A stretch of 64,000 bases of DNA from Terrimicrobium sacchariphilum (GCF_001613545.1 NZ_BDCO01000003.1:372001-436000), one strand, 5' to 3'. Positions 49,690 to 64,000 are shown, numbered from the stretch's first letter. The notes: generated from the letters alone by a model not told the origin. Translations and numbers: made by a program.

Positions 49690-51336
49690 ATGGATGGTAT
49701 GACATCTCGACCCGTACTTTGCTGGGCGCCTGGCACGATGGTCGTTTGCGCTCTGGCCCTGGCGATTTTCACCCAAGTCGGACGGGCTGCGGGAGTCGGT
49801 AATATGTCGGAAATTCCGACTTTGCGTGCCCAGGAACTTCTCCTGCGCAGTCAGCCTCGCAATGTGCGTCCTGCTGAGCGGCTCTCCCTCGCTCTTGGCG
49901 CTGCGCAGGCCGCATTTCCGGGAATGGCCGCGGGCAATCGTCGTGACATCGAGCTTTACTCCGCTGCGGTCAGTCAGGTCGTGGCGACCATACAGGACGG
50001 AGGATTTGCTGGGCGCGAGGTGTCTGGTGCGGGCGGAAAGTTTCGCCTTTTGGTTGATCGCAAGGGCAAAAATCTCCTCGATCCGGCCGATGCCAGTTCC
50101 ATCCTGCTCGCAAGCTCTGTGCGCCTGAGAGGGTTGCGCGCCCGCACTACCGAGGCGGGGGTGGGGGTGCCCTATGTTTTCTGCTATTTTCAGGACTCGG
50201 CCTTTCTCAAGAATCAGCCGGGTGTCTCTCGCGCAGGGATTTCTGTACCGGTCACCGCCCTCCTTGCCTTTGAGAAGGGCGAAGCCCGTCTCTGCTTTAT
50301 CAACCGCCTGAACGAAAATAGCGCCGAAGTTGAGGGGAAAAAATGGCCGCTCGCTGCAGATTTTTCCGCCGCTATCGCCCAGACCCTCTCCCGCACGCCG
50401 AATCGACCCTTCGACATCCCCGGCCTTCTTTTCACCCGCCACTTTCTGCCCAATGCCGGGCTCTTCCAGTTTCAGCTCTACGATCCCAATCGCATTCCGG
50501 TCATCCTCGTCCATGGCCTCTTTTCCCGGCCCGAGGCCTGGACTCAGGTGCTGAATGGGCTCATGGCCGATCCCAAGATTCGCAAGCGCTATCAGTTTTG
50601 GTTCTTCTTCTATCCCTCCGGCCTCCCGATCTGGCAGTCCTCGATGCTTCTTCGGCGCGACCTCGACAGATTCCACTCGGAGTTGGAGAAAAACGGACGC
50701 CAGCCCAATCTCCACCGCATCATTCTCGTCGGCCATAGCATGGGCGGACTCATTTCCAGTCTCACGGTCCGCGAGCCGGGCAGGAGCTTTTGGGCCTCTC
50801 TCTCCGATAAGTCACTGGAGGATCTGGATATCAGTCCCGAGGCGCGCAGCCTTGTGAAGGATATGGTAAAATTCCAGCCGCGCAAGGACATCGGTCGCGT
50901 GGTTTACGTGACGACCCCACATCGCGGCAGCCCCATCCCCCACAACCCCGTTATCCTTCAGGCCATCCGCTTCATTCAGCTGCCGCGAACCTTTAGCCGT
51001 CGGGATCGCGAGGTGCTCGTCGACGCAATGAATGAGGACCTGGCTGGTCTCTTCACTCTCCCGGCAAATAGCATTCGTTTCCTCAAGTCTGGCTCACCAG
51101 TCCTCGAGGCAGTGGAGACTCTGCCCTTTGCTCAGGACATTCCTCAGCACTCCATCATCGGGGACCGGGGCAAGGGCGACTCTCCCGACAGTACGGATGG
51201 TATTGTACCCTACTGGTCTGCACATCTGCCCAACGCCATCTCCGAAAAGATCGTTCCTACGGATCACAGCGCTCCGCAGAATCCCGAGACGACTCGCGAG
51301 ATCCGTCGTATCCTTCTGCACGACGTCAGCGAGTAG
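49690..51336 (+). CDS. Exported alpha/beta-hydrolase (lipase/esterase-like)
   Basis: This 548-aa protein has a hydrophobic signal (VVCALALAIFTQVG) and a C-terminal alpha/beta-hydrolase core. The catalytic features are IPVILVHGLFSRPEAW (oxyanion region), IILVGHSMGGLISS (Ser nucleophile), DGIVPYWSAHL (Asp) and VPTDHSAPQNPET (His). The N-terminal 250 residues do not match a domain I know. It follows the DUF4105 gene by 6 nt. It may act on lipids or esters outside the cytoplasm; the N-terminal half is unassigned. Confidence 0.85.
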   Translation: MDGMTSRPVLCWAPGTMVVCALALAIFTQVGRAAGVGNMSEIPTLRAQELLLRSQPRNVRPAERLSLALGAAQAAFPGMAAGNRRDIELYSAAVSQVVATIQDGGFAGREVSGAGGKFRLLVDRKGKNLLDPADASSILLASSVRLRGLRARTTEAGVGVPYVFCYFQDSAFLKNQPGVSRAGISVPVTALLAFEKGEARLCFINRLNENSAEVEGKKWPLAADFSAAIAQTLSRTPNRPFDIPGLLFTRHFLPNAGLFQFQLYDPNRIPVILVHGLFSRPEAWTQVLNGLMADPKIRKRYQFWFFFYPSGLPIWQSSMLLRRDLDRFHSELEKNGRQPNLHRIILVGHSMGGLISSLTVREPGRSFWASLSDKSLEDLDISPEARSLVKDMVKFQPRKDIGRVVYVTTPHRGSPIPHNPVILQAIRFIQLPRTFSRRDREVLVDAMNEDLAGLFTLPANSIRFLKSGSPVLEAVETLPFAQDIPQHSIIGDRGKGDSPDSTDGIVPYWSAHLPNAISEKIVPTDHSAPQNPETTREIRRILLHDVSE

Positions 51337-51479
51337 CCTCTGTCTCCCGGCGGTTCGCTCTCCGGCATGCCGTATCACGGGCATCCGGGACTCGCGAAAA
51401 ATGCGTTCCGCGAAATCAGGGTCGCTCCCCGATGTGGAAAATCCCTGGATGCGGGATGGTGCGTCAGGGTTTACTTCCG

Positions 51480-52718
51480 ATGAGGGTATCAAGGTATCTT
51501 GGAATCTGGGTTGTTGCAGGCGTCCTGATTGCTGACGGGCGCGCAGGGAGTCCATCGGAAAAAATCAACCGGATCGTCGATTTCGATGAAGATGGTGTCA
51601 CCATCACGAGCAATTTCGAAGGTGGTCGGCTTAACGCGGTGACCTCGGGCGGGGAGGGAGTCTTCACCGCCACCATTGCCCCGGAGGTCCGCCCCATGAG
51701 CAACGACCAGTCATGGTATGCCTTCAAGATTTCCTCCCAGAGCAAGAGGCGCGTCTCCGTCGCCCTCACCTATACGGATGGCAAGAGCCATCTCTTTGCT
51801 CCCAGGATCAGCCATGACCGGCGGACCTGGGAACTACTGCCCGAGACCTCGATAAGCAAGGCCTCCGACGGCCGGGGCGTGGTGTTGCGTCTCGATGTCG
51901 GGCCTGAACCATTGTGGGTCTCGGCGCAGGAGCTTTTCACGGAATCCGATTTCAACGAGTGGATCGACGGACTTGCGAAAAAGCCCTTCATCGCTACGGC
52001 GCAAATCGGTGAATCCACCCAGGGTCGACCCATCCGCAAGATGGAAATCACCGAGGCGCCTCCCGATGCTCCGCTGGTTGTCGTCCTCGGTCGCCAGCAT
52101 CCGCCGGAGGTTACTGGCACCCTGGGACTCCAGGCCTTCGTCGAAACCATCGCTGGTGACTCGGCTCTCGCCCAGTCCTTCCGCAAGCAGTACCGCGTGC
52201 TCGTCATGCCGCTGGCCAATCCCGACGGCGTGAACGCCGGTCACTGGCGCTTCAATGTCAACGGCGTCGACATCAATCGAGACTGGGGCAGCTTTGAGCA
52301 GAAGGAGGATGTCGTTTTGCGCGATGAAATCCTGCGCGCCCGTTCCGTGGCCAAGGAGCAAATGCCTTTCTTCATCGACTATCACTCGACGCGTAAGGAT
52401 GTCTTTTATCCGCGCCCGGATGTAAAAAGCAAAAAGCCCGACTCGGAGCTCGAGGAACCCGACCGGTTCATGCGCAAGTGGCTTGCCCGCGTGAAAACGC
52501 TTACGCCTGGCAGGACGGTTCCCATCGAGGTGAGTCCCGCCACGCGCGACAAAAAGCTAAATGCCACGACCTGGATGCGCGACCTCGGTGCCGCCAGCGT
52601 CACTCATGAATTTGCCCACGACACGGACCGCGAGGTCATCCGCAAGGCCGGGGAGGCCGACGCGGTGGCTCTCATGGAGTTGCTCCCGAGGGAGTCTGCT
52701 TCGCGCCTGGGGGACTAG
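51480..52718 (+). CDS. Exported M14 zinc carboxypeptidase family protein
   Basis: This 412-aa protein has a signal-like N-terminus (RVSRYLGIWVVAGVLIADGRAG), an N-terminal beta domain (about 45-170; FEGGRLNAVTSGGEGVFTATIAPEVRP) and an M14 peptidase domain. The zinc and catalytic residues are visible: RQHPPEVTGT (H-P-P-E), NVNGVDINRDW, FIDYHSTRKD (third ligand His) and SVTHEFAHD (catalytic Glu). It removes C-terminal residues from peptides or modified peptides. The N-domain arrangement is that of bacterial M14 proteins with a Pepdidase_M14_N domain. The ATG at 51480 begins the signal; 4 nt separate it from the PLP-enzyme gene. Confidence 0.88.
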   Translation: MRVSRYLGIWVVAGVLIADGRAGSPSEKINRIVDFDEDGVTITSNFEGGRLNAVTSGGEGVFTATIAPEVRPMSNDQSWYAFKISSQSKRRVSVALTYTDGKSHLFAPRISHDRRTWELLPETSISKASDGRGVVLRLDVGPEPLWVSAQELFTESDFNEWIDGLAKKPFIATAQIGESTQGRPIRKMEITEAPPDAPLVVVLGRQHPPEVTGTLGLQAFVETIAGDSALAQSFRKQYRVLVMPLANPDGVNAGHWRFNVNGVDINRDWGSFEQKEDVVLRDEILRARSVAKEQMPFFIDYHSTRKDVFYPRPDVKSKKPDSELEEPDRFMRKWLARVKTLTPGRTVPIEVSPATRDKKLNATTWMRDLGAASVTHEFAHDTDREVIRKAGEADAVALMELLPRESASRLGD

Positions 52719-52722
52719 ATTT

Positions 52723-53889
52723 ATGAGTATGACTGGTTTGTATTGCTCGGCTTGCGGATTGGATCACGACATGGGGGTGCCGCAGAATCTCTGCACCTCC
52801 TGCGGCAAGCCGTTGTTTGCTCGTTATGATTTGAAGGAAGCGGCCCGTACGCTCACTCCGCAGTCGCTCACCACGCGTGGCAAGTCCCTCTGGCGGTACC
52901 GCGAGGTGCTGCCCGTGCGCAAGGATGAGGATATCGTCACGCTTGGCGAAGGCTGGACTCCCATGCTTCACGTGCCGCGCCTCGGCGCGAAGCTCGGGAT
53001 GGAGCGCCTTTACATCAAGGACGAATCACAGAATCCCACGCAGAGTTTCAAGGCTCGTGGCATGACCGGCGCGGTCTCGATGGCCAAGCAGTATGGCCTC
53101 AAGAAACTCGCCGTTCCCTCCGCCGGCAATGCCGCTGGTGCACTGGCCGCCTATGCCGCGCGAGCCGGGATCGAGGCCCACATCTTCATGCCGGCGGACA
53201 CGCCGCAGGCAAACATCATCGAGTGCCGCGAGACCGGCGCGCATGTCACGCTCATCAACGGCCTCATCACCGATTGCGGTATGGAGGTCGCCAAGCGCAA
53301 GGCCGCCGAAGGGTGGTTCGATGTGTCCACGCTCAAGGAACCTTTTCGCGTCGAGGGCAAAAAGACACTCGGGTATGAACTCGCCGAACAGCTAGACTGG
53401 AAGCTGCCCGACGCCGTGCTCTATCCCACGGGCGGGGGCACCGGTCTCATCGGCATGTGGAAGGCTTTTGACGAAATGCAGCAGATGGGATGGATCGGCT
53501 CCGAGCGTCCGCGCCTTTATACCATCCAGGCCTCCGGCTGCGCGCCGATCGTGCGGGCCTTTGAGGAGGGCAAGCGTTTCGCAGACGAATTCCCCAACGC
53601 GGCGACAAAGGCCTCTGGACTGCGCGTCCCGAAGGCCATCGGAGATTTCCTCATGCTCGACGCTCTGAGGGCATCGGGTGGCGGAGTGGTTGCCGTACCC
53701 GATGAAGAAATGATTCAGGCCGTGCGCGAACTCGGCTCGGCCGAGGGCATCTTCGCCGCCCCGGAGGGAGCCGCCTGCTATGCGGCGCTCAAGCATCTGC
53801 GCGCTCAAAATGTGATCCGGGCTGACGAACAGGCCGTGATCTTCAATACCGGAGCCGGGGTGAAATACCTCGAGTGCTTCCATGACTGA
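52723..53889 (+). CDS. thrC: Threonine-synthase-like PLP-dependent enzyme
   Basis: This 388-aa fold-type II PLP enzyme has an N-terminal zinc ribbon (CSACG...CTSCGK), LGEGWTPMLHVPRLG and PTQSFKARGMTGAVSMAKQYG with the PLP lysine, AVPSAGNAAGALAAYAARAGI, LYPTGGGTGLIGMWKAF and AVIFNTGAGVKYLECF. Threonine synthases usually read S-F-K-D-R-G; here it is S-F-K-A-R-G, as in threonine dehydratases and other deaminases, so substrate specificity is uncertain. It sits inside an operon with a peptidase, amino-acid symporter and S51-type protein, and overlaps the symporter by 8 nt. Confidence 0.82.
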   Translation: MSMTGLYCSACGLDHDMGVPQNLCTSCGKPLFARYDLKEAARTLTPQSLTTRGKSLWRYREVLPVRKDEDIVTLGEGWTPMLHVPRLGAKLGMERLYIKDESQNPTQSFKARGMTGAVSMAKQYGLKKLAVPSAGNAAGALAAYAARAGIEAHIFMPADTPQANIIECRETGAHVTLINGLITDCGMEVAKRKAAEGWFDVSTLKEPFRVEGKKTLGYELAEQLDWKLPDAVLYPTGGGTGLIGMWKAFDEMQQMGWIGSERPRLYTIQASGCAPIVRAFEEGKRFADEFPNAATKASGLRVPKAIGDFLMLDALRASGGGVVAVPDEEMIQAVRELGSAEGIFAAPEGAACYAALKHLRAQNVIRADEQAVIFNTGAGVKYLECFHD

Positions 53890-55177
53890 TGCGGAATTGA
53901 CAATTCCCTCCGCGCGCAGCTGGCGTATGCCTTCACTGAGCGTGCAGATCTTCATTGGTCTGATCCTGGGCGGAGTCTTCGGCTGGGCTTTCCCCGCCAT
54001 CGCCCTCCACGGGGAATTGCTCAAGGACATCTTTCTCAACCTGATCAAGATGATGGTGGGGCCTCTGGTCTTTGCCAGCATCGTCCAGGGTATCGCCGGC
54101 GGCGGCGATCTCAAGCGCGTCGGCCGCATCGGACTCAAGTCCATTATTTATTTCGAGGTCATCACGACCATCGCGCTTCTGGTCGGATTGGTCTTCGCCA
54201 ATGTCATTCGCCCCGGCCAGCACGTCGCTCTTCACGCCACGGCCGCCGTTTCCGGTGTGCCGGCGGGCAAGCCCCAGACTGTCGCCGAGATGGTCCTGCA
54301 TGCTGTTCCCACGAGCGTTTTTGATGCGCTGGCTCGCGGTGACGTGCTGCAGATCGTGACGTTTTCAGTGATTTTCGCCATCGCGCTGTCCCTCGCGGGC
54401 AAGGCAGGCGAGCCGATCCTGAAATTTACCGAGGGCCTCACGCAGGTGATGTTTAAATTCGCCGGGCTGGTGATGCTCTTCGCCCCTCTTGGCGTGGCGG
54501 GAGCCATGGCTTTCACCATAGCGAAAAATGGCACCGGCATCCTCCTCAGTCTCGGCGCGCTGGTCGGGACGGTCTATCTTGCATTTATCGCATTCCTCGC
54601 GCTGGTGCTGGGTTCGGTCATGCTGATCTTTCGCATCCCGGTGATGCCTTTTCTCCGTGCGGTAAAGGAGCCGTGCCTCGTCGCCTTTGGTACGACGAAT
54701 AGCGAATCCGCACTGCCCAAGGCGTTTCAGGCCATGGAGCGGTTTGGCGTGCCCAAGGGCATCGTAGGTTTTGTCCTCCCTACGGGATACACCTTCAACC
54801 TTGATGGCGCGGCGGTGTATCTCACGGTCGCCATCCTCTTCATCTCGCAGGCCGCGGCGAATGTCACTGGCGTCACGCTGACATGGTGGCAGCAGATTCT
54901 CATGGTGCTTACGCTCATGGTCACCTCCAAGGGCGTCGCCGCCGTGCCTCGCGCCGCCATCGTCGTCCTTGTCGCAGCCCTGCACACCTTTGGCCTTCCT
55001 CTGGAGGGCGCGGCGCTTCTCATCGGTATCGATGCCATCCTCGACATGGGGCGCTCCGCCGTGAATGTCTTCGGCAACTGCCTCGCCAGTGTCGTGGTCG
55101 CCAAATGGGAGGGCGAGTTTGATCAGGACCAGGCCCTCTCAGCCTACGGTCCGCAACCTTTATTCAAGTCCACATGA
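53882..55177 (+). CDS. Dicarboxylate/amino acid:cation symporter (DAACS)
   Basis: This 431-aa membrane protein matches the GltP/DctA family. The motifs are FLNLIKMMVGPLVFASIVQGIAGGGDLKRVGRIGLK, LVAFGTTNSESALPKAFQAMERFGVPKGIVGFVLPTGYTFNLDGAAVYL (hairpin 1 and TM7, with the family's S-x-S-A-L-P and N-x-D-G patterns) and RAAIVVLVAALHTFGLPLEGAALLIGIDAILDMGRSAVNVFGNCLASVVVAKWEG. It co-transports aspartate, glutamate or C4-dicarboxylates with cations. It is translationally coupled to genes on both sides (8 and 4 nt overlaps). Confidence 0.92.
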   Translation: MTDAELTIPSARSWRMPSLSVQIFIGLILGGVFGWAFPAIALHGELLKDIFLNLIKMMVGPLVFASIVQGIAGGGDLKRVGRIGLKSIIYFEVITTIALLVGLVFANVIRPGQHVALHATAAVSGVPAGKPQTVAEMVLHAVPTSVFDALARGDVLQIVTFSVIFAIALSLAGKAGEPILKFTEGLTQVMFKFAGLVMLFAPLGVAGAMAFTIAKNGTGILLSLGALVGTVYLAFIAFLALVLGSVMLIFRIPVMPFLRAVKEPCLVAFGTTNSESALPKAFQAMERFGVPKGIVGFVLPTGYTFNLDGAAVYLTVAILFISQAAANVTGVTLTWWQQILMVLTLMVTSKGVAAVPRAAIVVLVAALHTFGLPLEGAALLIGIDAILDMGRSAVNVFGNCLASVVVAKWEGEFDQDQALSAYGPQPLFKST

Positions 55178-56724
55178 GAAACCTCATCGCCAGTATTCTG
55201 TTCATCTCCTCCGCCAGTGTATTCGCTGCCGCCACAGACACGGCAACTCCTGTGACCGGCCCCACCGCCGGAACGCTCCTCGTCGTCGGAGGAGGGGATA
55301 AAACCAGCATCTGGCCCACCTTTCTCGACCTCGCGGGGGGCAAGGACGCGCCTATCGTCGTCATCACCACGGCCAGCCCGAAGAATGGCGCGGATAACAA
55401 AGACTTCCAGGAACTTCAGGCACTCGGAGCCACTCATCTCACACTTTTGCACACCGACGATCGCACAAAGGCAAATTCCAACGAGTTTACCGCGCCCCTC
55501 CGTGAGGCAAAGGCAGTCTGGATTACCGGCGGTCGCCAGTGGAGGCTGGTGGATTCCTATCTGAATACAAAAACGGAGAAGGAAATCTTCAACCTCCTTG
55601 ATCGCGGTGGCGTCGTGGGAGGCAGCTCTGCGGGCGCATCCATTCAGGCGTCGTACCTTTTGCGCGGAGCCCGCTCCGGTAACAGCGTTCTCATGGCTGC
55701 GGGGTACGAGGAGGGTTTCGGGTTTCTCAAGAACACCGCAGTCGACCAGCACGTGAACACTCGTGGCCGGGCTGAGGACATGCTGCAGGTCCTCGAGGCT
55801 CATCCCAATCTCCTGGGCATCGGCCTCGATGAATCAACCGGCATCATTGTGCGCAAGGATCGCGCCGATGTGATCGGCGCAGGATACGCTCATTTTACCG
55901 CCCGGGAGGTGGGCAAGGACCGGTCCTTCGAGTTGCAATCCGGCGGTGCGTTCGATCTCGGCAGCCGCCATCCCATTGATCTCGTCTCGGAGCAGGCGGG
56001 CGACCAGGGGACCACGGCGAAAGATCCCGGCACCGTGAGGGTGGCGATCTATGCCGATGAGGGCAGCCCGAAAGCCCCGGATTTGATCGAGGGGTGCCTC
56101 GGGACGTTGCCGGAAAAGTTTCACCTCGAGCGCGTGACTGCCGACCAAATCCGTCAGGGAGTGTTGTCCAATTTTGATGTGATCGCCCAAGGCGGAGGCC
56201 GGGCGTCGCTCCAGGCGGAGGCTCTAGGCGATGATGGCAAGGAGAAGATCCGCGAGTTTCTTCGCAAGGGCGGGGGTTATGTCGGTATTTGTGCCGGCGC
56301 CTATCTCGCCGCGTCGGACCGTCCGTATTATCTCCGTATTGTAAATGCCCGCGTGGTGGACCGGGAGCACTGGGCGCGTGGAGGAGGTGACGTGCAGATC
56401 CGCTTTACTGACGAGGGCAAAACCGAACTGCGTCAGGAAACACCCGTCGTGCAGATCCGCTACAACCAGGGTCCCTTGCTGGCCAGGGATTCTCAAGCCG
56501 ATCTGCCATCCTATACGGAACTGGCCGTTTACGAGACGGAAATTGCAAAAAAAGGTGCGCCTGAAGGGGTTATGAAAGGGACGTCAGCGATGATCAGCGC
56601 GCCATTCGGGAACGGAAGGGTGTTTCTGAGCAGCCCTCACCCGGAGCGGACACCGGGTCTGGAAAGCATTTTGCAGTCGGCTGTGCTCTGGGTCGCAAAA
56701 AGGGACACGCCAGCTAATCCGTAG
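55174..56724 (+). CDS. Cyanophycinase-like S51 domain fused to BPL_N amidotransferase-like domain
   Basis: This 516-aa protein has a signal peptide (MRNLIASILFISSASVFAAA) and two glutamine-amidotransferase-like domains. The first (about 30-280) is cyanophycinase/S51-like: GTLLVVGGGDKTSIWPTFLDLAGG, AVWITGGRQWRLVDSYL and VVGGSSAGASIQASYLLRG with the Ser nucleophile. The second (about 290-510) reads VRVAIYADEGSPKAPDL, FDVIAQGGGRASLQAEAL and REFLRKGGGYVGICAGAYLAAS with a Cys nucleophile, as in biotin-protein-ligase N-like domains. Cyanophycinases release dipeptides from multi-Arg-poly-Asp. The fusion and its export are unusual. It overlaps the symporter by 4 nt. Confidence 0.85.
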   Translation: MRNLIASILFISSASVFAAATDTATPVTGPTAGTLLVVGGGDKTSIWPTFLDLAGGKDAPIVVITTASPKNGADNKDFQELQALGATHLTLLHTDDRTKANSNEFTAPLREAKAVWITGGRQWRLVDSYLNTKTEKEIFNLLDRGGVVGGSSAGASIQASYLLRGARSGNSVLMAAGYEEGFGFLKNTAVDQHVNTRGRAEDMLQVLEAHPNLLGIGLDESTGIIVRKDRADVIGAGYAHFTAREVGKDRSFELQSGGAFDLGSRHPIDLVSEQAGDQGTTAKDPGTVRVAIYADEGSPKAPDLIEGCLGTLPEKFHLERVTADQIRQGVLSNFDVIAQGGGRASLQAEALGDDGKEKIREFLRKGGGYVGICAGAYLAASDRPYYLRIVNARVVDREHWARGGGDVQIRFTDEGKTELRQETPVVQIRYNQGPLLARDSQADLPSYTELAVYETEIAKKGAPEGVMKGTSAMISAPFGNGRVFLSSPHPERTPGLESILQSAVLWVAKRDTPANP

Positions 56725-56818: not shown

Positions 56819-58663
56819 ATGACACACACGCTGCCAAACGCCTCCCGAGGGAAAAAGGGAGGATATCTCACCCGGCTCCTGGCCATTGCCGCCATAGCCG
56901 GAGGATCAACCGGATCACTCAAAGCCGCCAACTACACCTGGGATGGCGGTACAGGGAATATTGCATGGAGCAGTACGGACAACTGGGTCAACAACAGCAT
57001 CACCTTCGACGCGAATTCGATAATCTATTTTTCTGCGCCAGGAACAATCTACAACACTGTGCAGATCGACAAGCTCAAGACCGTAGGCGCTCTGGTTTTC
57101 GGAACCGAAACGAGTGGCAGTGGAGGTGTTTCCATAATCGGAAACAACAACGCTATAACCATCTCTACCGTGCTCGGTTCCAGTCTTGGTCTGACCGGCG
57201 ATCTGGCTTCCGCCAATATTGGCTTATGGGTGCAGTCGGGAGCTGGAGTCAATGGTTTGTACGCCAACAATACTTCCTCCAACACGGCTTCAAAAAATCA
57301 GGTGGGTGTACCCGTCATGATCGCGACGGCGAATACCACGTTCGTCAATGAATCAGGCAGCGATTTTTGTCTCGACGCGCGACTTCGTGGAACCACTGGT
57401 GGTTCATTGATTCTGAATAAGGGTTCGTGGGTTATCGACTATTCCGATTTCAATTCGGGAAACGGCACCAGTCAGATGAATGGAGGTCTAACTATTGAAG
57501 ATGCCAAACTGACGCTGAACGTTGCTGGGGGAACGCATGGAACGAATTCCACCAGCCCACTGGGCGAAGGAGCGTTGAATCTTGGACTCGCAGGCTCAAG
57601 TAAAGATGCTGTCTTTATATTTACCTCTCTGGAGCGAGCATCCGGCTCAGACAGCAATCGCCTCACTCCTTCCTCTAAAAATCTGGTCAATGTTGCCGAT
57701 GGAACCGGCAAGCGCGTGATTCAAAACGGCAGCGCCGTGAAGAAGGAATTGTATTCGGCCCTCACCATTGAGGGGTCCGCTACATTGACTTTGGACAATA
57801 ACAACATCGATGGAGCAGTTATTGAAATTAGTGCCGATGGCTCAGGAGTTGGCAACCCTGACCTCGACACCAAGACTGGAGTCCGCGGGACCGGGAATCT
57901 TTACCTCACGGGTGGTGGAACCTTCTACACCAAGGCCGGGGTGGTGATTGCTGGAAACGGTGTCCGCAACAGCTTCACCGGCCAAACAACAGTGCATCAG
58001 GGAACGCTGCAATTTATCGAGAGCGGCGGATTTCAAAAATCCTCCGTCATTCAGGTCGACAAGCAGGGCATCCTGGATGTCAGCCAGGCGGCGGGGGGAG
58101 CGTACACCGTGGGGGATGGCACCTACCTGAGTGGATCGGAGACGCAGACCTTGTCCGGCACCGGCCACGTCGTAGGGACGTTGCTGCTCGGAACCCAGTC
58201 CGTCCTGCGCGCAGGCGGCACGGATGCCGGCAGTTACCGGGCGGCACTCTCATTTGATAGTGATCTGTCGCTGGGGCCATTAACTGTCGCAGATTTGTCA
58301 GGTGTCTATTATGGAGCAGTAGATACGGCTGCTGTCCTTTCCTATGCTGGCGAACTGCGGGTGACCCTGGCGCAGGGATTTTATGCAGACGGTATTTACG
58401 ATCTATTCGGATTTGGCACGGAGGCTGGAGACTTTACGGCAATCACGGTGTATTCTGGCGCTACGCTGCTGGGAAGCCTCTCGCAGGGCGTTGGCGAGTT
58501 TGCCACGCTGTGGACCGGATCCATTGCCGGGCAGGACTATTCGTTTGACCAACTGAGTGGCGATCTTGCCGTGAGTGCGATTCCCGAGCCGCATACGATG
58601 GTGCTGCTTGGGTTGGCCGCATTCCTGCTTATTGCTAACAAGCGCCGGTTCCTCCGGCTTTAA
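56819..58663 (+). CDS. PEP-CTERM surface protein with autotransporter-type beta-helix repeats
   Basis: This 614-aa protein has a long signal region (RLLAIAAIAGGSTGSLKA). It then has a YTWDGGTGNIAWSSTDNWV start and repeated Gly/Asn/Thr-rich beta-strand units (for example GTGNLYLTGGGTFYT, SFTGQTTVHQGTLQFIESG) of the autotransporter-associated beta strand type. The C-terminus is a PEP-CTERM sorting signal: IPEPHTMVLLGLAAFLLIANKRRFLRL, with Pro-Glu-Pro, a hydrophobic helix and a basic tail. PEP-CTERM proteins are processed by exosortase, which is not in the window. Third positions are less G/C-rich than its neighbours. It directly precedes the pseudopilin cassette. Confidence 0.87.
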   Translation: MTHTLPNASRGKKGGYLTRLLAIAAIAGGSTGSLKAANYTWDGGTGNIAWSSTDNWVNNSITFDANSIIYFSAPGTIYNTVQIDKLKTVGALVFGTETSGSGGVSIIGNNNAITISTVLGSSLGLTGDLASANIGLWVQSGAGVNGLYANNTSSNTASKNQVGVPVMIATANTTFVNESGSDFCLDARLRGTTGGSLILNKGSWVIDYSDFNSGNGTSQMNGGLTIEDAKLTLNVAGGTHGTNSTSPLGEGALNLGLAGSSKDAVFIFTSLERASGSDSNRLTPSSKNLVNVADGTGKRVIQNGSAVKKELYSALTIEGSATLTLDNNNIDGAVIEISADGSGVGNPDLDTKTGVRGTGNLYLTGGGTFYTKAGVVIAGNGVRNSFTGQTTVHQGTLQFIESGGFQKSSVIQVDKQGILDVSQAAGGAYTVGDGTYLSGSETQTLSGTGHVVGTLLLGTQSVLRAGGTDAGSYRAALSFDSDLSLGPLTVADLSGVYYGAVDTAAVLSYAGELRVTLAQGFYADGIYDLFGFGTEAGDFTAITVYSGATLLGSLSQGVGEFATLWTGSIAGQDYSFDQLSGDLAVSAIPEPHTMVLLGLAAFLLIANKRRFLRL

Positions 58664-58674
58664 GAATCGTTAGG

Positions 58675-59232
58675 ATGCTGCTGCCTGATCCAAACCGAAA
58701 CACGTCACACGTCCGCCCGCTCATGGGCGGGCGTGAGGCTGGTTTTTCTCTCGTGGAGGCATGCATCGCGATCGGTCTCGTGGCGTTTTGCCTCGTGGCG
58801 CTGCTGGGCTTGTTTCAGATCGGCCTCACCCAGGAGCGTCAGGCCGTCGATCAAGTGCAGGCGGCGCATATTCTCGCGGCGGTATCCGATGAATTTCGCG
58901 GTCTGGGTCGGCTTCCCGACGGCTCCACCAGTACGCTGACTAGGGGCGCGCGGTTCGGGTTGCAGCTTCCAGCGTCTGGGGCGGGCGTCTCTCAGCCGTC
59001 CAGCTCGATCCGGGTCGACGAACAGGGTGAAGTAGCGACATCCGGGCAGACGTATGTCGTGCATTACTGGATCACGCCCCCGACATCCGCCCAGGGCATC
59101 TACGCCCCGTATCGTCTCAAGGCCCTCGTCGCCTGGCCGGGGAGTGCGAGCATCACTGGAAGCGCGGACTCGCCGGTCCTCAAAAACGCCCGAGGTTTCG
59201 TGGAGACAACCCTGGAGTTCAATCGTGGATAA
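58675..59232 (+). CDS. Verru_Chthon cassette protein B (pseudopilin)
   Basis: This 185-aa protein has a type IV prepilin-like N-terminus: GREAGFSLVEACIAIGLVAFCLVALLGLFQIGL, with Gly-|-Phe cleavage and the conserved +5 Glu, followed by a soluble domain (RQAVDQVQAAHILAAVSDEFRGLGRLPDG, TYVVHYWITPPTSAQG). The length, placement and order match cassette protein B. It begins 12 nt after the PEP-CTERM stop and overlaps the next gene by 8 nt. The function of the cassette is unknown; a minor-pseudopilin role is inferred from the signal. Confidence 0.85.
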   Translation: MLLPDPNRNTSHVRPLMGGREAGFSLVEACIAIGLVAFCLVALLGLFQIGLTQERQAVDQVQAAHILAAVSDEFRGLGRLPDGSTSTLTRGARFGLQLPASGAGVSQPSSSIRVDEQGEVATSGQTYVVHYWITPPTSAQGIYAPYRLKALVAWPGSASITGSADSPVLKNARGFVETTLEFNRG

Positions 59233-60022
59233 ACCCCGTTCCAACGGAGCCTTCACGCTTGTCGAGCTTCTCGCGGCCACTGCTGTATTTATCCTCCTCA
59301 TGGGCTTGCTCATGCAGGTGCTCGGGTCGGTGAGCAGCACCAGCGACCTTTCCCAGCGGCGACTGGAGGTTCTTCGGCAGGCGATCACGGCATTGCAGCG
59401 GGTAGAGTTTGATCTTCGCGAGACCATTCATACCGGAGGCTCCGGGATTTTCGTCAACAAGGGAGGATCAGGAAATATCAACGATGAGTTGTATTTCTTT
59501 GCTCCTGTTTCCGGGAGCACGAGTCCGGCCGCTCCCCGTAAGCTCTCGCTCGTGAAGTATGGTGTTTCGTCGCCCGCGACCGACCAGCCTTCCTTTGGCC
59601 AGTGGCCGGAGATGCCTTCCCTATCGCGTACGGTGCGCCCATTTGGATGGGGGGATGATGTCGGCAAGCTCTTGCCCTTGTCGGATACCGCCGCCTCGAC
59701 CGCCATCGCAGCGGGCGACACGCAGCAGATTTCCCCCAGTATTATCAGGTATGAGATTTGCTTCCAGCAATGGAACGGCACGATCTCAAGCCAGCCGCCG
59801 TCAGATTGGGCCAGCGTTCGCGCCCTGATCATCGGCGTGGTGGCGATCGACAGAAAGGCAGCGTCACGGTTGACGCAGGGAGAGAGGGATTCCCTGGCAT
59901 CGCAGTTTGCGAAGCCAGGCGCCAATGATCGCCCTTCGGCAAAGTGGAACGGTGTCATAGCGAACCTCCCCCAGAGCGTTCGGGAAGGAATCCGCATCTA
60001 TGAACAAACCATATCTATCTAA
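59225..60022 (+). CDS. Verru_Chthon cassette protein C (pseudopilin)
   Basis: This 265-aa protein starts at a GTG overlapping the previous stop. The N-terminus RSNGAFTLVELLAATAVFILLMGLLMQVLGS is a prepilin signal, but the residue before the Phe is Ala rather than the usual Gly. The soluble part has LRQAITALQRVEFDLRETIH, IRYEICFQQWNG, and RALIIGVVAIDRKAASRLTQ. It fits cassette protein C by order and length, and resembles GspJ/PilW-like minor pilins in layout. It overlaps gene D by 23 nt. Confidence 0.85.
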   Translation: MDKPRSNGAFTLVELLAATAVFILLMGLLMQVLGSVSSTSDLSQRRLEVLRQAITALQRVEFDLRETIHTGGSGIFVNKGGSGNINDELYFFAPVSGSTSPAAPRKLSLVKYGVSSPATDQPSFGQWPEMPSLSRTVRPFGWGDDVGKLLPLSDTAASTAIAAGDTQQISPSIIRYEICFQQWNGTISSQPPSDWASVRALIIGVVAIDRKAASRLTQGERDSLASQFAKPGANDRPSAKWNGVIANLPQSVREGIRIYEQTISI

Positions 60023-60623
60023 ACGTTCCGCCTTTTCCGTGGTGGAGTTGCTCACGGTGGTTTCGCTCATCTCAGTGCTCACCGTCATGGTGACCCCTGC
60101 GGTGTCCTCGATCATGGGGGCGACAGGTACCACGCGTGCTGTGAACGATGTATCCACCGTGATGGAGCACGCCCGCCAGTCGGCCATGAAGCTCAGCACG
60201 TGGGTGTGGGTCGGCGTGGCCGACGTCACCGCATTCAATAACGGATCGCCTCAGATTTGCGTGGTCGAGTTGGCCAGTAAAGATGGGTCCTCAGACCTCT
60301 CGGCGGACAATCTCATGCCGCTCCGCCGCAATCTGAACGTTCAGGGGGTTCGGTTCTCCTCCGAGCCAGACCCGAATGCCACCGTCATAGGCGACTCCAC
60401 TCCGGCCTCGACCCTTGACTGGCCTGTAGTCACGACCAGCGGGCGGCGGAGTGTGGATTTTGCGAAATACGTGATTGGCTTCTCGCCCAAGGGTGAGGCG
60501 CTGCTGGGCGGCGATGTGTCTCCGGCCTGGATCAAGGTTCCCTTTGTCGCACATAACAACAGCTCCGATCTCAAATCCGTGCTGGTGTCTGGTCCGTCCG
60601 GGCAGGTTGTCGTCGTTCACTAG
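60000..60623 (+). CDS. Verru_Chthon cassette protein D (pseudopilin)
   Basis: This 207-aa protein has the prepilin-like signal KRSAFSVVELLTVVSLISVLTVMVTPAVSS, again with Ala before the Phe and the conserved Glu. It has the long N-terminal helix with RAVNDVSTVMEHARQSAMKLSTWVWVGVADV, as in GspH/FimT-type minor pilins. The position and size fit cassette protein D. It starts inside the end of gene C, and its stop is one nucleotide before the ATG of gene A. Confidence 0.85.
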   Translation: MNKPYLSKRSAFSVVELLTVVSLISVLTVMVTPAVSSIMGATGTTRAVNDVSTVMEHARQSAMKLSTWVWVGVADVTAFNNGSPQICVVELASKDGSSDLSADNLMPLRRNLNVQGVRFSSEPDPNATVIGDSTPASTLDWPVVTTSGRRSVDFAKYVIGFSPKGEALLGGDVSPAWIKVPFVAHNNSSDLKSVLVSGPSGQVVVVH

Positions 60624-60624
60624 G

Positions 60625-63600
60625 ATGAAGGGGCGTACTCTCCAGCGATCCCAGGGAGGCGGTGCTCTCCTGGTGACGCTGGCCTTTGTCGTGCTGGTTA
60701 CGGTGGCGATCCTTGCCTTCGTCGCGCACACGCAAAGCGCCCTTCTCACCGCCCGCACCACCGTGTCCCGCATGGAGAGCGAAAATCTGGTGACGAGTGC
60801 GGTCGAGGCCACCATCAGTGATCTACGACAGGAAATGCTCGCCGGGTCTCTGAAGGATGCTGCCCGACCCAGCTTCGACTCCCTCGATCCGCTCGTGGTG
60901 CGCCGCCGATGGGCCATGGTTCCCTCCCGGTTGGTCTCCCCCAATATTCCGGCCACCGGGTTTGAAAATCTGGTCAAGCAAAGCCTCTATCGCAAAAACT
61001 TCTATCCCGGCGCGACCGCGACCACCAATTTCATTACCTACGGTCCCGCCTCCTCCGTCGGGTCGCGGCGCGCGAGTGCAGTCAATACGGGGACGCCCTC
61101 TGCGGACGGTCGGCTGCTTTCCGCCGCACGTTGGGATCAAGTCGCTCTCGCCGCCCAATCCTTTCCAGACAACGCCTTGCCCGACTGGATTTATGTGACC
61201 CGCAGCGGGGTACCCTCCGATGGCACGACGCTCGCCGAGGCTGGGGCCTCCAAGCCCGACATGGCTAACACGAACTATGTGGTCGGGCGGTATGCCTACC
61301 AGATTTACGATGTGGGCGGGCTGCTCGACATCAATACTGCTGGGCTGCCGGCGACTTTCGCCACCAATGCCGCAGCCCGCGGAGGCGTGCAATGGGCGGA
61401 CCTTACCGCTCTCGGACTCACCAGCGACCAGGTGGCGAGCCTTATGGATTTTCGCTTTTCGGCCACGAAGTCATATTCCGACCTCCCGGAAATGGTGCGT
61501 TACGGAGCCGAACGCTCAGGATTCCTCACTCCGCTTTCCGCTGGCAGTGACTCGGACGGCTTCTTTTATTCCCGGCAGGATCTGCTGCGCTTCTTCCTGC
61601 GGCTGTTCGGAAAAACCAGGCTCAAGGACTGCACGACTGCGGAGCGAGAGATCCTTGCCTCGCTGACCCAGGATTCGCGGTTCCTCGCCTCGCCCTCCTG
61701 GAATCCTCCCACCCTTGGCACGGCCGAGCGCCCTGCCATCAAGCAGGAGACCAAGGGCGGCAACAACTCGTACGGAAAGGACGATTTATTCAACCCGGTG
61801 ATCGTGACCAATACCGTGACGTCCTCCAAGCCATTCACCCGACCGCGCTTCACCGATCCCCGCACGATGTCCGGCCTCAAGGAGGTGAGCGCCAAACCCG
61901 GTGATCCTTTTGTCCTCAATCGCTTCCCCCTCGACAGGCTGCGTCTCATTACCCGCGATGCCACGGCGGACCAGAATAGCCTGATCTATCGATATTTCGG
62001 CCTTACGAGGTCCTCCCCGGATGACCCATGGGTGTATGATCACGGTACCTCCGAGACAGCCGGAAACTCCGAGCGCATTCTCTATCTGGATGAGCCGAGG
62101 ACGGGTGCCTTTACGAATGACGGTAATGCGCGGGAACCCGATTTTGTCGAAACGCTCAAGGCGGCCATCTCAGCCGGTTCGCTGGGCAAGAGCGCAGGCA
62201 TTTATAATGGTGGCAGCGACTGGGCCAACGCCCGTGATCAGCGTCTAAATTATCAGCTGATGCAGATATTTGCGAATATCATCGATCAGTATGATGAGGA
62301 TGGCTACCCGACCCATATCCAGTTTGATGGGATGGACTTCTATGGAGTGGAGAATCTCCCGTACCTGCAGCGTATCAAGATCTTCATGGCCCGGCTGTTG
62401 GTCGATTCGGACCCTGCTCTCGACTCGAGCGGGAAGCCGCTGAAGAATCAGCCGTACTCCATGGTGTGGCTGCCGGAGGTCTGGAACCCCCACGATCCCA
62501 ATCAAGCCCTGCCCGCCGATCGCCCGACAAAGTTCCGCGTGGTGGCCGACACCCTTGGTGTGGCTTTCCCCATGCAATATCGGGATTCCGCCAATAACAC
62601 CGATACCTATTACAATGATGGGATGGCGGATTTCGATCCCGACAAGAACAACATCGAACTGACGCCGCTCGCATTGAGCAAGTCCTACGAGCCGACCATG
62701 ATCAACCGGCTTTCCCTGGGTACGCCGTCGGTGCCGCTGACAAGTATCGATCGCAAGCCGCCGCCACCCACGAAGCCAACCGATCCGTACATCGACTGGA
62801 GCCTTCAGGCCCCGGTCGATAGTGATCTCGCCGGTATTGCCAGCCCGGCCATCTTTGTGGACCTGAATGTCGCCAAAATCGGCCTCCGCTACTACACGAA
62901 TGACCAGAAACCTGGCATCACCTTTGGGATGGAATATCAGGATGCCAAGACAGGCACATGGCATCGTTATCTGGACCGTACTCTCCTGCGCGCAGGAGCC
63001 GATGGCGGCACCGATAGCCCGCGCGGAAAATCCAAGAATCAAAGCGATTACGAATTGCAGAACAACACCCGTATCGTCGCTTTTGATCCGCGCTCCGACC
63101 GCTTTTCCACCTACCGCATCCAGGAACGTGATTCCGACTCCGGCGCCTATGTCGACAGTGTGTCTCTGCGACCGGATCAGAAAGCGGGCTATGGTATGAG
63201 CTACAATCAGACGGCAGACAATCGCCAGTCTCCCGCCCGGGATGCCAACTACGGATGGACCATGGGAACTGCGAGCATCACGTCAAAGTCCACCAGCGGC
63301 AGCGGCACGCTGGGATATGCGATGGGAACCATACTTCAGAATTCCACGACGGGTACACGCTACACGGACCCCGACGGCATCCAGCGCTCTGGCGATGGCA
63401 TTCTCGCGAGCGGAACAGATGTCGAGGGACAGATGTATTGGCCCAATAACGGGCCGAGCAGGCCGATCATCCTGAACCGGCCATTTCGCTCTGTTGCCGA
63501 GTTGGGGTATGTCTTCCGCGACACGCCGGGAAGAAGTCTCGATTTCTTCACCGACAAAAGCGGAGATGCCACCCTGCTCGACTTCTTCTGCATCGGCGAG

Positions 63601-64000
63601 ACGCCGAATGACGCCATAACCTCGGCACGGGTGTCGGCCAATACCCGCAACGTCAAGGTGCTCGTGAGTTTGTTGAAGGGGGCGCTGCGCGACCCCGTTA
63701 GCAAAACCACGTTGTCTGGCACTCGCGCTTCCGAGGCGGCACAGGCTCTGGTCGGCCTCACGACCGACGCCGCCAAGGGGCCGTTGCTGAATCGCTCGGA
63801 GCTCGCCACCCAGCTCCTCGCTGCACTCCCGGTTTCCAGTTCGGATAAAACGGAGCGTATCAAGCGACAGCGCGAAGTCTTTGTCCGCGCCCTGGCAGAT
63901 TCTCTCGAAACGAGAACCTGGAACCTGCTGATCGACCTGATCGCTCAGACCGGGCGTGTGCCCAATGGAAAAACCGCTTTTACGGATTTTCGTGTGGAGT
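60625..64000 (+). CDS. Verru_Chthon cassette protein A, 5' part (runs off right edge)
   Basis: At least 1125 codons are open from the ATG at 60625 to the window edge. The N-terminus RSQGGGALLVTLAFVVLVTVAILAFVAHTQSALL is a GspK/PilX-like signal (Gly followed by a hydrophobic helix, without the +5 Glu), with a very large exported region after it. Blocks such as YQIYDVGGLLDINTAGLP, LNYQLMQIFANIIDQYDEDGYPTHIQFDG and YSMVWLPEVWNPHDPN look conserved. The DVGGLLDINTAG block resembles the 'D-x-x-G-x-I-N-x-N' seen in GspK. A role as the large tip or capping subunit of the apparatus is inference; the C-terminus is missing. Confidence 0.85.
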   Translation, partial: MKGRTLQRSQGGGALLVTLAFVVLVTVAILAFVAHTQSALLTARTTVSRMESENLVTSAVEATISDLRQEMLAGSLKDAARPSFDSLDPLVVRRRWAMVPSRLVSPNIPATGFENLVKQSLYRKNFYPGATATTNFITYGPASSVGSRRASAVNTGTPSADGRLLSAARWDQVALAAQSFPDNALPDWIYVTRSGVPSDGTTLAEAGASKPDMANTNYVVGRYAYQIYDVGGLLDINTAGLPATFATNAAARGGVQWADLTALGLTSDQVASLMDFRFSATKSYSDLPEMVRYGAERSGFLTPLSAGSDSDGFFYSRQDLLRFFLRLFGKTRLKDCTTAEREILASLTQDSRFLASPSWNPPTLGTAERPAIKQETKGGNNSYGKDDLFNPVIVTNTVTSSKPFTRPRFTDPRTMSGLKEVSAKPGDPFVLNRFPLDRLRLITRDATADQNSLIYRYFGLTRSSPDDPWVYDHGTSETAGNSERILYLDEPRTGAFTNDGNAREPDFVETLKAAISAGSLGKSAGIYNGGSDWANARDQRLNYQLMQIFANIIDQYDEDGYPTHIQFDGMDFYGVENLPYLQRIKIFMARLLVDSDPALDSSGKPLKNQPYSMVWLPEVWNPHDPNQALPADRPTKFRVVADTLGVAFPMQYRDSANNTDTYYNDGMADFDPDKNNIELTPLALSKSYEPTMINRLSLGTPSVPLTSIDRKPPPPTKPTDPYIDWSLQAPVDSDLAGIASPAIFVDLNVAKIGLRYYTNDQKPGITFGMEYQDAKTGTWHRYLDRTLLRAGADGGTDSPRGKSKNQSDYELQNNTRIVAFDPRSDRFSTYRIQERDSDSGAYVDSVSLRPDQKAGYGMSYNQTADNRQSPARDANYGWTMGTASITSKSTSGSGTLGYAMGTILQNSTTGTRYTDPDGIQRSGDGILASGTDVEGQMYWPNNGPSRPIILNRPFRSVAELGYVFRDTPGRSLDFFTDKSGDATLLDFFCIGETPNDAITSARVSANTRNVKVLVSLLKGALRDPVSKTTLSGTRASEAAQALVGLTTDAAKGPLLNRSELATQLLAALPVSSSDKTERIKRQREVFVRALADSLETRTWNLLIDLIAQTGRVPNGKTAFTDFRVE

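Follow-up and report, generated by a model that had tools for sequence, protein, structure and literature searches.

We found that the 3' end of the window (the whole 64,000-nt stretch that was analysed, G000:C3:372001-436000 of the 4.75-Mb genome of a soil-type Verrucomicrobiota) carries a real, conserved cassette of four pseudopilin-type genes behind a gene for an exported protein. Sequence comparison indicates that it is a divergent variant of a named, functionally unassigned family and most likely a T2SS-tip-like module. On balance, we lean slightly towards the view that the cassette would serve as an alternative minor-pseudopilin tip for shared T2SS/T4P machinery, devoted to exported proteins that are encoded close by. 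The gene set P-B-C-D-A was verified on one strand (+) by ORF calls on the window, and is listed here with its upstream neighbour and a fifth cassette gene.

55174..56724, +, upstream neighbour: exported peptidase S51/cyanophycinase-like protein (TIGR02069 120.8 bits, cut-off 126.6; PF03575)
56819..58663, +, P: PEP-CTERM beta-solenoid protein, exported, putative client, 614 aa (PF07589, near-cut-off TIGR02601, AF2)
58675..59232, +, B: GspI-like minor pseudopilin, 185 aa (TIGR02598 below cut-off; GspI the nearest Gsp class)
59225..60022, +, C: GspJ-like minor pseudopilin, 265 aa, GTG start (TIGR01711 and TIGR02599 below cut-off; HHalign)
60000..60623, +, D: GspH-like minor pseudopilin, 207 aa (TIGR02596 below cut-off; HHalign to GspH)
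60625..64000, open at the window end, +, A: GspK-like large tip protein (HHalign, PF03934)
64067-64765 equivalent (L045 14068-14766), outside the window, E: fifth cassette gene, 232 aa (signal peptide by eye)

Gene layout and the T2SS tip pseudopilins

The ORFs are as an earlier sequence-only reading had described them, and its overlaps of 8 nt (B/C) and 23 nt (C/D) proved correct, whereas the P-B gap, given there as 12 nt, measured 11 nt; a terminator was sought in this gap and none was found. D and A are separated by 1 nt. The GspK-like A, expected to exceed 1100 residues, is 1153 aa in the complete genome, where it ends 86 nt beyond the window (leaving its final 28 codons and stop codon outside) and its gene overlaps that of E. 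A Pfam search of the E orthologue from Spartobacteria bacterium LR76 gave no match. Since the five-gene order is kept in related genomes, the set is not a product of chance. Upstream of P, a row of genes at 49690-56724 encodes an alpha/beta hydrolase, an M14 carboxypeptidase, a threonine-synthase-like PALP enzyme, an SDF symporter and the cyanophycinase-like protein, the last four in an order kept in four genomes; this row may serve the use of peptides or cyanophycin, and it is uncertain whether the cyanophycinase-like neighbour belongs to the same unit as P. Beyond the window, a histidine kinase/LuxR response regulator pair (L045 14781-17300) lies convergent with the cassette and is kept in LR76, a Verrucomicrobia MAG and UBA695.

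We compared profiles of 26-28 family members with GspG/H/I/J/K of the source genome and of E. coli K-12 using HHalign. A matched GspK at 68% probability, with every other Gsp class at 12% or below, and C matched GspJ (96.1) and GspH (94.0). For B (GspI 93.7, GspH 92.7) and D (GspH 96.2, GspG 96.1) the margins were narrow because the prepilin helix dominates. When curated HMMs were run over all members, gspJ matched 18 of 27 C proteins (gspI 8), gspI 7 of 26 B proteins (gspJ 1) and gspH 21 of 27 D proteins (gspG 18), and PF03934 T2SSK was the sole T2SS family matched by A (2 of 28 members, best E 0.0046). The window's own C scored 23.5 bits against TIGR01711 gspJ, below the cut-off. The prepilin motifs of B (GFSLVE), C (AFTLVE) and D (AFSVVE) all have Glu at +5; the N terminus of A (GGALLVTLAF) has no Glu at this position, as in GspK, and a GspK-like LDINTA (INTA-type) motif follows at 233. 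A second INTA-like motif, at residues ~915-1019, is present in the A proteins of L047, L049 and L055, and possibly marks a repeated GspK-type domain in some divergent A proteins.

Sister cassettes have the order D-B-C-A, equal to gspH-I-J-K, of which the window's B-C-D-A is a variant. This order and the profile matches together lead us to read the set as the equivalent of the T2SS tip complex, D probably corresponding to GspH, B to GspI, C to GspJ and A to an enlarged GspK, one to one, so that the HHalign and curated HMM results support the suggestion that the cassette supplies minor pilins. The Gsp homology of all four proteins resides mostly in the N-terminal helix region, a point that weighs against this reading. 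In searches against solved structures, the profiles of B, D and mostly C matched pilin helices alone, C reached solved GspJ structures by weak matches only (E 0.4-0.7) and the A profile had no match; an AF2 model of A with three orthologues had a pLDDT of 30 and was discarded.

A family of 25 loci and the machinery elsewhere in the genome

NCBIfam names the families Verru_Chthon A-D and states no function for them, and we found no paper naming TIGR02596, TIGR02598, TIGR02599 or TIGR02600 in the literature searched. All four models matched the window's proteins, as had been foreseen, but none of the four curated cut-offs was reached: B scored 38.7 bits with TIGR02598 (cut-off 51.4), C 24.3 with TIGR02599 (256.5), D 31.3 with TIGR02596 (70) and A 15.1 with TIGR02600 (332.3). 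They are therefore relatives of Verru_Chthon rather than members by NCBI's rule, and are best placed as a divergent sister group of Verru_Chthon B, C, D and A. In a curated HMM scan, each aligned B, C and D member matched its own Verru_Chthon model, and the A profile ties the divergent A proteins to 13 canonical ones at E 1e-72 to 1e-105. A cassette count, proposed as a check on the original reading, gave 25 A-type loci in the genome, of which 13 exceed the TIGR02600 cut-off, L044 is intermediate and 11 are divergent, like that of the window. Two of the 25 are irregular, L035 having A alone and L032 having C and D apart on the opposite strand. The divergent cassettes usually run D-B-C-A-E, whereas that of the window, exceptionally for this genome, runs B-C-D-A-E; the very variable E gene occurs in 10 of the 11 divergent cassettes and in 0 of the 14 others.

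As the sequence-only reading had noted, the cassette has no ATPase, platform or secretin genes. Elsewhere, the genome encodes five GspE/PilB-type ATPases, three PilT-like ones and six secretin matches. A complete ordinary T2SS at C2:3.008-3.019 Mb (L073) contains GspG-H-I-J-K, genes in the L/M positions, a secretin, an ATPase and GspF in the order G-H-I-J-K-L-M-D-E-F, including its own ordinary tip set, and a T4P-type locus (L076/L077) has motor and pilin genes. The presence of both makes the proposed borrowing of a core machine plausible. The genome also has one exosortase (E 1.5e-44) and about 100 PEP-CTERM motifs.

The T4P-type motor and pilin genes also bear on an alternative that we consider unlikely, namely that the cassette's products cap a fibre resembling a type IV pilus, with A as a large polymer- or surface-binding adhesin and P as a separate surface protein. 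PilY1 is a secreted non-pilin, and A, with its GspK-type N terminus, is unlike it; no PilY1 family match was found among 28 A proteins, and each of the four proteins pairs with its own T2SS tip class. In favour of a pilus tip, A is far bigger than GspK, its residues 640-905 are its least conserved part, the cassettes are located in polymer-use loci, and in M. xanthus three clusters, each of four minor pilins and one PilY1, serve one pilus machine (PMC7541494).

The putative exported client and its exchange

The first reading had described P as a PEP-CTERM protein with autotransporter-type strands. The PEP-CTERM assignment holds at exactly the Pfam cut-off (PF07589 20.7 bits, cut-off 20.7), with NCBIfam's TIGR02595 slightly under its own (15.5 bits, cut-off 16). 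The C-terminal tail IPEPHTMVLLGLAAFLLIANKRRFLRL comprises a PEP motif, a TM helix and a basic end and, together with a signal peptide seen by eye and the exosortase in the genome, gives P by sequence the features of an exosortase substrate. A single autotransporter-type repeat likewise scored slightly under the cut-off (TIGR02601 19.7 bits, cut-off 19.85), and an AF2 model (pLDDT 57.6, pTM 0.69) has a beta-solenoid core and the PEP-CTERM helix. Structural comparison with VIA-align placed this model near pertactin-, UpaB-, Hap- and lyase-type beta-solenoids (Z 10-16; pertactin Z 16), while Foldseek gave nothing better than E 0.1. These neighbours, autotransporter passengers and polysaccharide lyases, would indicate a shared fold and not a function, and in that sense support the term beta-helical. 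A classical (type V) autotransporter was considered and rejected, as no C-terminal barrel domain was matched and the C terminus is the PEP-CTERM tail.

The order P-B-C-D-A is kept in four genomes, those of the source, LR76 and the Verrucomicrobia MAG (both of the same genus as the source) and UBA695, with the M14 peptidase, PALP enzyme, SDF symporter and cyanophycinase-like genes upstream in the latter three as well. Identity to the window's P is 79% in LR76, 78% in the MAG and 49% in UBA695, and identity to its A is 83%, 68% and 61%, respectively. Within the family (26 genomes), full-length P was found only in the three genomes that have the orthologous A; among 213 genomes of the order, an orthologous A was found in five, and each of these five orthologues has a gene for an exported protein in front. 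In the fifth (G166; L088, contig C73, reverse strand), the cassette B-C-D-A-E, whose A is 52-54% identical, has no P in front and stands behind a Laminin-G PEP-CTERM protein and two secreted sulfatases. The tie to one PEP-CTERM protein thus holds, as far as gene arrangement goes, in the window's lineage (four genomes) and not elsewhere, and the exchange of client, although a single case, is as a module with changeable clients would predict and lends that idea support in outline.

These data also weigh on the possibility that P and the cassette are functionally unlinked neighbours, P going with the upstream cyanophycinase-like protein and the cassette serving another protein. The cyanophycinase-like gene adjoins P in all four genomes and also adjoins a P paralogue, so that the pair recurs in the genome without a cassette; moreover, PEP-CTERM genes occur within 2.5 kb of cassettes at background frequency. 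The narrow P-B gap with no terminator found in it, the identical order in four genomes and the exported-protein gene preceding every A orthologue argue the other way, and we regard the unlinked reading as quite improbable. The paralogue, P2, is 59% identical to P and lies 11 kb from it with no pseudopilin cassette alongside, which implies that P-type proteins may not need one. At this place, ~4 kb past the window (G000:C3:440103-443197; L080 103-3197), a second cyanophycinase-like gene is followed by the paralogue.

Phylogenetic tests revealed conflicting histories within A. For residues 1-639 of four orthologues, the window groups with the MAG (L057) and the other tested trees are rejected (AU p 0.029 and 0.0004), whereas residues 640-905 reject the window+L057 grouping (AU p 0.0055). 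In this middle part, the least conserved across paralogues (12-22%), identity to the window is 44% for L057 and 86% for LR76, and E in L057 is down to 40%. A simple rate effect was considered as the cause of the middle's divergence, but the AU test excludes the species-like tree for the N part (p 0.029) and the N-part tree for the middle (0.0055); the conflict favours mosaicism of A. We infer that A's middle domain and E may together form a variable unit. As P did not diverge strongly along with these two in L057, the middle of A need not recognise P, and this observation argues against its doing so.

We then placed all 25 cassettes in their genomic context. A PEP-CTERM gene stands directly upstream on the same strand in two of 25 (the window and L046). 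PEP-CTERM genes near cassettes were at background within 2.5 kb (5 observed, 5.1 expected), were not significantly more frequent within 5 kb (10 against 7.3, p 0.18) and were enriched only within 10 kb (22 against 10.5; 0 of 2000 shuffles as high). That each cassette is paired with a PEP-CTERM or autotransporter-type protein, a point which the first reading had proposed to check, is accordingly not supported, and for PEP-CTERM proteins it was rejected at the scale of adjacency. LacI-type sugar-binding domains were found in 12 of 90 neighbour genes, against at most 1 of 90 in the control of 20 random stretches (Fisher p 0.0025), and the other neighbour families include GntR, SSF symporters, GH1, GH5, acetyl xylan esterase, CBM and deacetylase, with GH2, GH38 and GH130 in the first neighbour list. 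Judged by these genes, most cassettes lie within LacI/GntR-regulated carbohydrate loci, among which the window's own context of peptidase, cyanophycinase-like protein and dicarboxylate symporter is the odd one out.

The same neighbours count against a further reading, that the pseudopilins export polysaccharide rather than protein, as Hps does in filamentous cyanobacteria. C members do match HpsC (7 of 27) and HpsB (4 of 27) models, and the hps locus also joins pseudopilins to HpsA, a protein of unknown function (PMC4284469). However, these matches are weak and fewer than those to T2SS and competence models, and genes for sensing, transport and degradation are the most frequent around the cassettes, where the 25 commonest families include no glycosyltransferase. 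We therefore judge polysaccharide export to be highly improbable.

Proposed role and comparison with known systems

Substrate selection by the T2SS has long been an unsolved problem, and in model organisms each machine usually has a single tip complex. The tip complex has been described as critical in substrate recognition (PMC6211770). In the reading that we favour, B, C, D and A would be an alternative set of four minor pseudopilins capping the T2SS pseudopilus. The genes would be co-transcribed with that of the exported protein, and their products, cleaved by the cell's prepilin peptidase, would assemble as a tip at the end of a pseudopilus powered by a shared core machine encoded elsewhere, most likely the T2SS at C2:3.008-3.019 Mb. 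This tip may then recognise and export, or display at the surface, the exported protein of the same transcript, here P, whose PEP-CTERM tail would be expected to be processed by the single exosortase. Specificity would be set by A's variable middle, and by E where present.

The many spare tip sets, mostly near sugar-use genes and here behind a predicted surface-anchored beta-helix protein, suggest that one shared machine may carry a different tip according to the protein that it exports. A bolder and more tentative extension, which we hold possible though doubtful, is that one core machine is re-targeted by ~25 exchangeable GspHIJK-type tip sets, each induced with its own nutrient locus, with the middle of A (plus E in the divergent type) as the exchangeable specificity module. 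A genome with ~25 tip sets near different exported-protein genes or nutrient loci would make specificity testable by tip swapping. The assignment of Verru_Chthon A, B, C and D to GspK, I, J and H also gives a testable role to four NCBIfam families that have no stated function.

Among known systems, the closest in composition are the Verru_Chthon cassettes themselves, which share the four proteins A-D and are represented by 13 canonical cassettes in the same genome; these canonical cassettes lack E, in contrast to nearly all of the window's divergent group. With GspH-I-J-K of the T2SS, the set shares the one-to-one profile match, Glu+5 in three proteins and its absence from the fourth, and the gene order of the sister cassettes. 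Unlike GspH-I-J-K, the cassette lies outside the core T2SS operon, is without GspG and is present in ~25 sets per genome, and its A is ~3 times as large as GspK. In Myxococcus xanthus, the minor pilin/PilY1 clusters are likewise alternative sets of four pilins and one large protein for one machine, but number three against 25 here, and A gave no PilY1 family match. The Hps system of filamentous cyanobacteria resembles the cassette in having several pseudopilins beside the protein HpsA, in addition to the weak matches of C to HpsC and HpsB (PMC4284469), but the hps locus has glycosyltransferases, absent from the commonest cassette neighbours. The PEP-CTERM system was first noticed in Verrucomicrobium spinosum (PMC1569441). 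Finally, the excerpted account of Verruconatronum alginivorum describes many pseudopilin copies in a Verrucomicrobiota genome, as here, with 67 homologues, one pseudopilin up on alginate and a proposed T2SS export of alginases; in that excerpt, the work concerns a PulG-like protein and not a four-part tip set (PMC13274419).
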